Below are positions 16,100 to 26,276 of a stretch of DNA of 64,000 bases, one piece after another. The DNA comes from Seleniivibrio woodruffii (GTDB taxonomy: Bacteria > Chrysiogenota > Deferribacteres > Deferribacterales > Geovibrionaceae), in contig NZ_SMGG01000003.1 in assembly GCF_004339245.1 (NCBI RefSeq), positions 806,770 to 870,769 on the forward strand, in the 5' to 3' direction. Position 1 is the first letter of the stretch; each line of letters starts with the position of its first letter. The translations under genes were made by a program, and so were the position numbers. A model generated the notes under the pieces. That model had not been told where the DNA came from and searched no databases. It was given only the letters and a program-made list of their open reading frames with translations.

Positions 16100-16128
16100 T
16101 TGACAGATTCCGATTTATCGTTCAAAAT
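16100..16128 (+). promoter_or_regulatory. Sigma-70 promoter of the cobalamin operon
   Basis: Perfect -35 TTGACA (16100-16105), 17-nt spacer, -10 CAAAAT (16123-16128). It is placed so that transcription would begin at the 5' edge of the riboswitch. Confidence 0.7.
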
Positions 16129-16135
16129 CCCATCA

Positions 16136-16290
16136 AAGCCTGACAAGGGTGCAGGCGGAATAAGGGAAACCGGTTCAAATCCGGTGCTGTCCCGCAGCTG
16201 TAAGCCGGACGAAACCCCGAAAATTGTCACTGATCAGGATGATCGGGAAGGCAGGGGAACTAGGACGAAGGCAAGCCAGAATACCTTATC
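16136..16290 (+). promoter_or_regulatory. Cobalamin (B12) riboswitch
   Basis: Conserved cobalamin aptamer segments appear in order: AAGGGAAACCGGT, AAATCCGGTGCTGTCCCGCA (the B12 box), GCTGTAAGCCGGA and finally AAGCCAGAATACC. Downstream, CCCGTT (16321-16326) can pair with AACGGG (16364-16369), which abuts the cbiK ribosome site GGGAGG. This suggests translational shut-off when cobalamin is bound. The aptamer assignment is from motif recognition. The expression platform is inferred from complementarity. Confidence 0.93.
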
Positions 16291-16377
16291 TGCCCATGAA
16301 CTTTACGAGGATAGAGGAACCCCGTTCCACGTTCAAGAACACCCTGAAAAGCATAATATTTTTAACGGGAGGCGTGT

Positions 16378-23742: not shown

Positions 23743-25302
23743 TTAAATTCCGCCTTCCACCTTCGGAGCAAGTTTCGACTCTCTTCTCGTAATGTACTTA
23801 TTCAGAGCGTCAAGATAAGCCTTTGCGCTGGCAACCACAACGTCGGTGTCGGCTCCTCTGCCCTTAACGACGTAGCCGCATTTTTCAAACTCTGCGGAGA
23901 GGGTCACTTCGCCCTGAGCATCCTTGCCCTCGGTAAGGGCTTTGATGTCGTAGCTTTTCAGTCTGCCCTGAATACCCGCTATCCTCTCAATGGCTTTAAG
24001 AGCCGCATCCACGGGGCCGTCGCCGATTGAAGCATCGGTGATGAACTCGTTATCTGCGTTTTTAAGCCTTACAGTGGCAGTGGGTATCGCAGTGTTGCCG
24101 CTGAACATGTTTATTCTGTCCAGATCAAAGTGCTTTGTGGTCTGCGCTGTCTGGTTCAGAACAATATTCTCAATGTCCTCGTCGAACACTTCCTTCTTCT
24201 TATCGGCCAAAATTTTGAAAGCATCAAATGCGGCCTGCATAGCTTCGTCGGAAATCTCGAAGCCCAGAGCTTTAAGTCTCTGAACAAATGCGTGGCGGCC
24301 GGAGTGTTTGCCCAGCACAAGGCTGTTTGCGGGGTAGCCGACGCTTTCGGGAGTCATGATCTCATAGGTTATTCTGTTTTTCAGCACGCCGTCCTGATGG
24401 ATCCCGGCTTCGTGTGCGAATGCGTTCTTGCCGACGATGGCCTTGTTGGGCTGAACGTTTACGCCTGTTATGGCTGTCAGCATTTTGCTTGAGCGGTAGA
24501 TCTCTTTGGTGTTAACGCCGAACTCTATCTCATCGAACAGGTCTTTTCTGACTGTCATGGCCATTATTACCTCTTCCAGAGATGTGTTGCCCGCTCTTTC
24601 GCCGATTCCGTTTATTGTGCACTCCACCTGACTTGCGCCTGCTTTGACGGCGGCCAGAGAGTTTGCGGAGGCGAGGCCGAGGTCGTTGTGGCAGTGAACG
24701 CTTATTCTTGCCTTGTCAACGTTGGGCACTCTGTTCATGATCGCACTGATTATCTTTTCATATTCCATCGGCACTGTGTAGCCCACTGTGTCGGGGATGT
24801 TCACTGTTTTTGCGCCTGCGGCGATTACAGCTTCAACAACACGGCACAGGTAGTCAACGTCGCTTCTGGTTGCGTCTTCTGCGCTGAACTCAACGTCATC
24901 GCAGAGGTTTCTGGCGAATTTTACAGCGTCAATGGCTATCTGGAGTGTCTCCTCTCTGGTCTTTTTCAGTTTGTACTGAAGGTGTATGTCGCTGGTGGCT
25001 ATGAAAGTGTGGATGCGGGGACGAACAGCACCTTTCAGAGCTTCCCAGCCCACTTCTATATCTTTTTTGTTGGCACGGCAGAGACCTGCCACGCCGCAGT
25101 TTTTGATTACGGCGGCAACACGGCTCACAGCCTCAAAGTCGCCGGGGGATGAGATGGGGAAGCCTGCTTCCATAACGTCAACGCCCATTTTTTCAATCTG
25201 GAGTGCCAGCTGGATTTTCTCTTCGGTGTTCATGGAAAATCCGGGTGCCTGCTCGCCGTCTCTGAGTGTTGTGTCGAAAATCATGATCTTTCTTTTTGAC
25301 AT
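23743..25302 (-). CDS. leuA: 2-isopropylmalate synthase
   Basis: 519 residues. The HMGL-like TIM barrel shows TTLRDGEQAPGFSM at the N-terminus (catalytic Arg and Asp), metal-site HCHNDLGLASAN (HxH type) and GIGERAGNTSLEE. The C-terminal LeuA allosteric domain (about 390-510) binds leucine for feedback inhibition. It condenses acetyl-CoA with 2-oxoisovalerate in leucine synthesis. GAAGGAGAAGG precedes the ATG. A short leucine-containing leader peptide and a hairpin followed by a U-tract lie just upstream, so transcription attenuation by leucine supply is likely. Confidence 0.96.
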   Translation of the reverse strand: MSKRKIMIFDTTLRDGEQAPGFSMNTEEKIQLALQIEKMGVDVMEAGFPISSPGDFEAVSRVAAVIKNCGVAGLCRANKKDIEVGWEALKGAVRPRIHTFIATSDIHLQYKLKKTREETLQIAIDAVKFARNLCDDVEFSAEDATRSDVDYLCRVVEAVIAAGAKTVNIPDTVGYTVPMEYEKIISAIMNRVPNVDKARISVHCHNDLGLASANSLAAVKAGASQVECTINGIGERAGNTSLEEVIMAMTVRKDLFDEIEFGVNTKEIYRSSKMLTAITGVNVQPNKAIVGKNAFAHEAGIHQDGVLKNRITYEIMTPESVGYPANSLVLGKHSGRHAFVQRLKALGFEISDEAMQAAFDAFKILADKKKEVFDEDIENIVLNQTAQTTKHFDLDRINMFSGNTAIPTATVRLKNADNEFITDASIGDGPVDAALKAIERIAGIQGRLKSYDIKALTEGKDAQGEVTLSAEFEKCGYVVKGRGADTDVVVASAKAYLDALNKYITRRESKLAPKVEGGI

Positions 25303-25380: not shown

Positions 25381-25408
25381 AAAAAATACCCAACCCGCAT
25401 TTCGGGTT
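25381..25408 (-). terminator. Attenuator hairpin in the leuA leader
   Basis: On the minus strand, AACCCG / CGGGTT with an AAATG loop is followed four bases later by TTTTTT. An alternative pairing, CCGCA (plus 25415-25419) with TGCGG (plus 25395-25399), would break the terminator and act as an antiterminator. The switch is inferred. Confidence 0.6.
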
Positions 25409-25425
25409 TACCTGTGCGGTTCTTT

Positions 25426-25449
25426 TTATGTTCCTAGTCCTGATAGCAT
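25426..25449 (-). CDS. Putative leucine leader peptide MLSGLGT
   Basis: Seven-codon ORF with an ideal ribosome site: AGGAGG at 25457-25462 and a 7-nt spacer. Both leucine codons are CTA, a codon that looks rare in the surrounding genes and is also the codon used in the E. coli leuL control region. It ends 18 nt before the 5' arm of the attenuator. Slow translation at CTA when leucyl-tRNA is scarce would favour the antiterminator pairing. The coding assignment rests on position and ribosome site only. Confidence 0.55.
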   Translation of the reverse strand: MLSGLGT

Positions 25450-25473
25450 TGTCGTTCCTCCTGATACAGATTC

Positions 25474-25509
25474 AAAAAAAAAGCCCCAACCCGTAAGGGC
25501 TGAGGCTTT
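25474..25509 (-). terminator. Terminator after pssA
   Basis: Stem AAAGCC-CA-CCC / GGG-TG-GGCTTT with a four-base loop and one or two mismatches, followed on the minus strand by a run of nine T. It leaves almost no room for a separate leuA promoter before the leader peptide. The leuA transcript may start inside pssA or pass this hairpin. Confidence 0.7.
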
Positions 25510-25529: not shown

Positions 25530-26276
25530 TCACACTTCTGTTCCGAAAGGTTCCTCAGTTTGCCCCGCAGGGTGTCTTAGACGTTTGTACGCAAATAGCA
25601 GCAGGCCGCTGAGAGCGTAGCCGACGGATAGAACAAATAGCGCAAGTTCGGGGATGAGACCTATTACGAAAATGGCAAGTACGAACATTACCAGTACGTT
25701 ATAGGACTTGTGCTGAGACATTGTCTTTCCGCTGAAATATTTGACATTGCTGACCATGAGGAAAGCAAGGATGTATATTGTGAAAGTGAACCAGACGGGA
25801 AGGGTTATGTCGGCAGGGTTGCCTATATATTCCTTCACGAAGAGCACGCTGGATGCTATCACTCCTGCGGCAGCGGGAATGGGCAGTCCGATGAAGTATC
25901 TGGGATCGATTTTTTTGGTCATGACGTTGAAGCGGGCAAGGCGCAGAGCACCGCACGCAACAAAAAGGAAAGCGGCCATCCAGCCCAGTCTGCCGTAGGG
26001 CTCCAGAGCCCATCTGTAGACAAGGATTGCGGGAGCCACACCGAAAGACACAAGGTCGCTCAATGAGTCCAGCTGAATTCCGAAGTCGCTTGTGGCGTTC
26101 ATGAGGCGTGCTATCTTTCCGTCAAGCCCGTCGAAAACGAAGGCAACCAGTGTCGCACTGGCGGCAAGGGTATATTGTCCGTTGAGTGAGGCTATGATGG
26201 AATAGAAACCGCAAAAGAGACTCATGATGGTCACGAGGTTCGGCAGAACATAATTTTTGTTCTGAACAGCGTTCAT
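25530..26276 (-). CDS. pssA: CDP-diacylglycerol--serine O-phosphatidyltransferase
   Basis: 248 residues, a multi-pass membrane protein. The CDP-alcohol phosphatidyltransferase signature DG-x2-AR-x8-G-x3-D-x3-D is seen in FDGLDGKIARL followed by FGIQLDSLSD (about residues 47-72). The hydrophobicity gives about 7-8 membrane segments. It makes phosphatidylserine, the substrate of the psd product immediately upstream (3-nt gap), so the two genes form the phosphatidylethanolamine pathway. A terminator follows. Confidence 0.95.
   Translation of the reverse strand: MNAVQNKNYVLPNLVTIMSLFCGFYSIIASLNGQYTLAASATLVAFVFDGLDGKIARLMNATSDFGIQLDSLSDLVSFGVAPAILVYRWALEPYGRLGWMAAFLFVACGALRLARFNVMTKKIDPRYFIGLPIPAAAGVIASSVLFVKEYIGNPADITLPVWFTFTIYILAFLMVSNVKYFSGKTMSQHKSYNVLVMFVLAIFVIGLIPELALFVLSVGYALSGLLLFAYKRLRHPAGQTEEPFGTEV

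Follow-up and report, generated by a model that had tools for sequence, protein, structure and literature searches.

The 3′ end of pssA as a proposed leucine-responsive leader for leuA in Seleniivibrio woodruffii

The window, a 64,000-nucleotide stretch of Seleniivibrio woodruffii DNA, contains a pssA–leuA junction at which leuA is very probably under leucine-specific, ribosome-mediated transcription attenuation, with the last ~36–40 codons of pssA serving as the leader peptide. This proposal is built on codon clustering, a terminator, an alternative pairing, conservation, controls and the joint presence or absence of these features, all read from sequence; from these we infer ribosome stalling, antitermination and the direction of the response. 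Beyond this species, it appears likely that in at least two phyla (Deferribacterota and Desulfobacterota) the last 20–40 codons of pssA, a working phospholipid gene, act as a leucine-starvation sensor for leuA, forming an amino-acid attenuator that would lack its own leader peptide. The outputs would differ, with an intrinsic terminator in some lineages and another output in Desulfovibrionales, and one family would add a CTA-bearing mini-ORF. An earlier note on this DNA had placed leucine attenuation ahead of leuA; that idea is strongly supported, but the conserved leader and attenuator are the pssA 3′ end and the terminator behind it, upstream of the mini-ORF that the note described.

Locus layout and the CTA cluster in pssA

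The minus strand of the locus reads, in order, pssA, a terminator hairpin, an AGGAGG with a short upstream ORF (uORF), a second hairpin, and leuA. The gene pssA (25530–26276, minus strand) encodes CDP-diacylglycerol--serine O-phosphatidyltransferase, scoring 144 bits against TIGR00473 with a cut-off of 107, and is preceded at a distance of 3 nt by psd, whose product Psd is supported by an NCBIfam model. The proposed controlled gene leuA (23743–25302, minus strand) encodes 2-isopropylmalate synthase, with a TIGR00973 score of 740.9 bits, above the cut-off. No match to the T-box model (RF00230), for which Geobacter-type loci served as positive control, was found within the window, whose only Rfam elements are one tRNA and a cobalamin riboswitch at 16125–16306 on the plus strand (RF00174, 95.6 bits).

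The control-codon region lies within pssA (25578–25640, minus strand), with CTA at 25640–25638, 25631–25629, 25598–25596 and 25580–25578. In the last 45 codons of pssA, CTA accounts for four of the nine Leu codons, compared with 0/24 in the rest of the gene and 0/32 in leuA. The rarity of CTA, on which the earlier note had made its reading depend, is borne out by the codon count: in the 1.66 of 2.9 Mb sampled from this genome for the codon and ORF statistics, no sense codon is rarer than CTA, which has a frequency of 1.35 per thousand and makes up 1.5% of Leu codons. Among ~1,425 sampled ORFs, four CTA codons in the tail are found only in pssA and in one ORF inside a CRISPR array. The latter (L290) was discarded as a candidate, being part of the array and not a gene; the array itself (L290:3387–3723 and downstream, outside the window) has the repeat TTTCTAAGCTGCCTATGCGGCAGTGAAC, is type I-F-like, and had been called as a CTA-rich ORF.

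The same cluster recurs in other lineages. In 25 Deferribacterota genomes, a set defined by a terminator at the pssA–leuA junction, CTA makes up 89 of the 194 Leu codons located 10–39 codons before the pssA stop and 4 of the 520 beyond 50 codons, while in 87 Desulfovibrionales genomes it makes up 190/357 Leu codons within 20 codons of the pssA stop versus 23/2516 upstream; the genomes in these counts are related, and nominal p-values overstate their independence. The persuasive part is the sharp step, together with a position that is specific to each group (10–39 versus 0–19 codons from the stop), and both features suggest that the Deferribacterota and Desulfovibrionales clusters are of separate origin. 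Four Tharpella-like Desulfobacterota show the same design in unrelated sequence, with 4–5 CTA and a different terminator. Control codons of the kind expected for a ribosome-mediated attenuator are accordingly present as a CTA cluster in the 25 Deferribacterota and in many Desulfovibrionales genomes. Exceptions exist. Two Calditerrivibrio-type genomes (L015 and L016) have a single CTA far from the stop, and enrichment in their family, f2, is weak; in genus g15 of family f6 (L040, L041 and L043), a short pssA/leuA terminator is found with no CTA enrichment, reflecting either decay or a different control.

Terminator and competing pairing at the junction

An intrinsic terminator is predicted at the pssA/leuA junction (25480–25509, minus strand), with a 13-bp stem followed by U9, and we propose it as the attenuator. 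It folds with a predicted energy of −21.9 kcal/mol, corresponding to a z of −4.72 against shuffled sequences. The terminator is kept within the genus, and other families have one with another sequence; a terminator, as a ribosome-mediated attenuator calls for, is found across Deferribacterota families and is missing in most Desulfovibrionales. Neither this stronger terminator nor the upstream CTA cluster in pssA had been mentioned in the earlier note.

Inside the coding end of pssA, CGGGGCAAACTGAGGAACCTTTCGGA (25542–25567, minus strand) forms the predicted 5′ strand of an antiterminator. Its duplex with the terminator's 5′ arm has a predicted energy of −17.3 kcal/mol, a value reached by 31–33 of 2000 synonymous-codon shuffles. 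Nested within the antiterminator fold predicted for the window is a further small hairpin, at the stop codon. Measured from the first base of the last CTA, pairing begins 14 nt downstream in the window and at a median of 26.5 nt across genomes, compatible with the front edge of a ribosome. When a ribosome is placed at the last CTA and the RNA that it frees is folded, the antiterminator is predicted to form before the 3′ arm of the terminator exists in nearly all of these genomes. Other families pair different segments, such as CTGGAGGAAGAGGCTC with AGGTCTCACCCTTCAG or TTCTGAGTCTGGGACC with GGGCCCCGACTTAGAA.

Synonymous recoding with the Leu codons held fixed weakens the pairing in 9/9 clades (Stouffer z of −5.25 computed over clade means), though in some genera the pairing is only mildly better than synonymous shuffles, at a z of roughly −0.5 to −1. 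Tails exchanged among clades often paired equally well, a control that does not discriminate because GAGG and CCUC are generic. Computationally, an antiterminator that excludes the terminator is present, modestly so in some genera. Predicted folds of the full-length RNA favour the terminator over the antiterminator, so that antitermination must be kinetic.

The junction also bears on where leuA mRNA comes from. On the minus strand between pssA and leuA, a scan for promoters of the sigma-70-like type found none; in several families the pssA–leuA gap is just 69–95 nt and mostly consists of the terminator and the ribosome-binding site, and in families other than that of S. woodruffii the T run ends about 25–40 nt before leuA. 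With no such promoter here and hardly any room elsewhere, leuA mRNA is likely to arise by read-through.

According to our model, RNA polymerase would transcribe psd–pssA and then meet the strong terminator ahead of leuA. When leucyl-tRNA is ample, the ribosome would clear the CTA codons and cover the end of pssA at the stop codon, allowing the terminator to form. When leucyl-tRNA is short, the ribosome would instead stall at the CTA codons, some 15 to 35 codons short of the stop, and the exposed last codons of pssA could then pair with the terminator's 5′ arm; this would block the terminator and let leuA be transcribed. In the family of S. woodruffii, the second set of CTA codons, in the mini-ORF past the terminator, would probably add a further stall-dependent step.

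The mini-ORF, alternative outputs and controls

Intrinsic terminators that beat shuffles are found at 7 of the 87 Desulfovibrionales junctions. Since most Desulfovibrionales have the CTA cluster but no recognisable terminator, the output must differ there, and Rho is a candidate. A related explanation holds that the CTA tail and the mini-ORF sense leucine through Rho-dependent polarity or RNase access, with no antiterminator switch. It would account for the CTA tails without an intrinsic terminator in most Desulfovibrionales and for the Deferribacterota uORF, which often has no hairpin behind it, yet the CTA-tailed Deferribacterota and the Tharpella-like genomes have a strong terminator whose 5′ arm pairs with the tail, and we regard this explanation as unlikely.

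The mini-ORF that the earlier note had singled out lies on the minus strand (the note gave no strand) at 25426–25449. The elements described for it are all in place: AGGAGG at 25462–25457, a 7-nt spacer, and ATG CTA TCA GGA CTA GGA ACA TAA at 25449–25426, that is, ATGCTATCAGGACTAGGAACATAA, which translates to MLSGLGT and in which both Leu codons are CTA. It is alone among 182 intergenic ORFs of 4–30 codons preceded by a Shine-Dalgarno (SD) sequence (1.66 Mb) in having at least two CTA; with its uniqueness among these ORFs and its use of the rarest codon, the mini-ORF is a real feature whose CTA codons are not there by chance. The comparison with related genomes that the earlier note had called for came out in favour of the leader ORF, with a CTA-bearing uORF at the same place in 11/11 genomes of genera g1, g3 and g4, all of one family. 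These uORFs are SD-preceded, span 5–25 codons and contain two or three CTA, which account for 24/30 of their Leu codons over the three genera. Both CTA codons and the mini-ORF are kept in four congeneric species, in two of which almost no sequence separates the mini-ORF from leuA. At three loci of genus g3 in family f1 (L009, L011 and L012), a longer leader-like ORF (MIGKNHPKRKTTVL...) is seen, with a conserved basic N-terminus and CTA near its end.

The attenuator that the earlier note had drawn behind this ORF fares differently. A weak hairpin followed by GGGTATTTTTT does exist at 25392–25408 on the minus strand, in this species only; it reads AACCCG-AAATG-CGGGTT at 25408–25392, then TATTTTTT, and the alternative pairing CCGCA/TGCGG can likewise be found in the sequence. 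However, the hairpin has a 6-bp stem ending five bases before the T run, and its folding is no better than that of shuffled sequences (z −0.31 over the whole leader, and −0.80 when the hairpin is taken together with its tail). Neither the pairing nor the hairpin is conserved, both being missing in 4/4 congeners. Because the codons are conserved and the hairpin is not, conservation backs the CTA codons and not the proposed pairing, and together with the shuffle tests it led us to reject this hairpin as the main attenuator.

A self-contained minimal leader, in which the seven-codon uORF would work with its own attenuator hairpin directly behind it, is improbable. The parts it needs (SD, start codon, both CTA, hairpin and T run) are all present, and the uORF with its CTA codons is kept in related genera, but the hairpin fails as described above and the uORF is itself preceded by a strong terminator. 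The mini-ORF is downstream of the conserved terminator and is transcribed after the decision there, so it cannot act through that terminator. A ribosome stall simulated on the uORF caused no consistent change in the accessibility of the leuA SD in predicted folds, and translational control by the uORF via that SD was rejected on these grounds. Our best guess is that the mini-ORF recruits a ribosome that would stall when leucine is short and so shield exposed RNA against Rho or RNases; a weak second attenuator may also be driven by it, though in this species alone. The mini-ORF thus appears to be a side element, the conserved leucine sensor being the pssA tail.

Another explanation treats the terminator as an ordinary end-of-operon element, has leuA transcribed from a separate promoter within or close to the intergenic region, and lets the uORF act through Rho-dependent or translational control. 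The strength of the terminator would suit it, as would the retention of the uORF in three genera even with no hairpin behind it. We give it little credence: the want of a sigma-70-like site on the minus strand, within the limits of the scan given above, led us to reject a leuA promoter of this type, the short distance between T run and leuA elsewhere speaks against it, the predicted uORF stall had no consistent effect on the leuA SD, and both the CTA cluster of pssA and its pairing with the terminator arm would be left unexplained.

Attenuation through the pssA tail also makes sense of the controls, in which the CTA cluster tracks gene arrangement and is absent where it is not needed. Where leuA abuts or overlaps pssA, CTA is unenriched (4/62, without a T run, and 6/57); where leuA is out of view, CTA in the tail stands at 9/160 versus 51/1004 elsewhere; and in Geobacter-type genomes, with a T-box at the junction, tail CTA is 1/36. 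That the cluster serves PssA itself, its slow codons aiding membrane insertion or folding of the last helix and leuA control being incidental, is highly improbable, for although the cluster overlaps C-terminal hydrophobic segments, there is little or no enrichment when leuA does not follow pssA or overlaps it, T-box junctions lack the cluster, and the Desulfovibrionales cluster, at codons 0–20 from the stop, falls in another part of the protein.

Relation to known systems and parallel cases

In classical leu, trp and his attenuators (E. coli leuL and others), the ribosome stalls at codons for the end product, antiterminator and terminator structures compete, and a biosynthetic gene lies downstream. 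The pssA–leuA junction resembles them in its end-product control codons, in its predicted stalling and competing structures, and in the biosynthetic gene that follows; unlike them, it has no dedicated leader peptide, its control codons being in a ~248-codon enzyme gene of another pathway. A short dedicated ORF whose product has no other role, the hallmark of a classical leader, is not what carries the main control codons here, since these sit in the enzyme gene pssA, and the dedicated mini-ORF sits beyond the conserved terminator.

In logic, the closest precedent would be E. coli rph–pyrE, where a terminator ahead of pyrE responds to UTP through translation of the rph end (Bonekamp et al. 1984, as cited in PMC2784333). 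In both cases an intergenic terminator comes under the control of a ribosome on the 3′ end of an upstream enzyme gene, by prediction in the case of pssA–leuA. At rph–pyrE, the UTP signal passes through RNA polymerase speed and ribosome coupling, whereas pssA–leuA would use rare CTA Leu codons, together with an antiterminator that lies in the coding tail and excludes the terminator. The rph–pyrE type of architecture is present at pssA–leuA, and the codon signature points to leucine, not to a nucleotide.

Two further systems control leuA by other means. The Geobacter leuA T-box (RF00230; PMC2700814) occupies the same pssA–leuA junction, takes uncharged leucine tRNA as its signal and controls a terminator, as proposed here; it differs in sensing tRNA directly by RNA, with no translation, and the Geobacter-type genomes lack the CTA tail. 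The actinobacterial LEU element (PMC1262725) shares with this locus a Leu-codon uORF ahead of leuA, for which its authors suggest an origin from an older coding sequence (a transposase); its pseudoknot is thought to act on the leuA Shine-Dalgarno, and no intact upstream enzyme gene serves as leader (PMC1262725). Literature searches, which reached few subscription papers, turned up no account of a pssA tail acting as leader for leuA, a weak absence given that coverage; neither leuA nor leader peptides appear in Rodionov 2004, which deals with delta-proteobacteria.

If the proposal holds, an amino-acid attenuator can do without a dedicated leader peptide, and synonymous codons could tune the end of any translated gene that lies ahead of a biosynthetic gene into a sensor. 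Searches restricted to short leader ORFs would overlook such sensors, although their signature, in which a gene tail with rare cognate codons is followed by a terminator and a biosynthetic gene, lends itself to scans of all genomes. Synonymous recoding of pssA would, by the same reasoning, alter leucine synthesis.

Among the Desulfovibrionales loci (L158–L246), several have C-rich tracts past the stop codon and a small hairpin that extends across the final codons. In one genus of this order (L225), a second, longer leader-like ORF, MDSVDVSTKMTRRKTEYRPYGPLLCTLLAN, with the pattern CTA CTA ... CTA CTA, lies between a strong terminator and leuA. It parallels the mini-ORF of S. woodruffii in another phylum, so the two-step arrangement seems to be of multiple origin.
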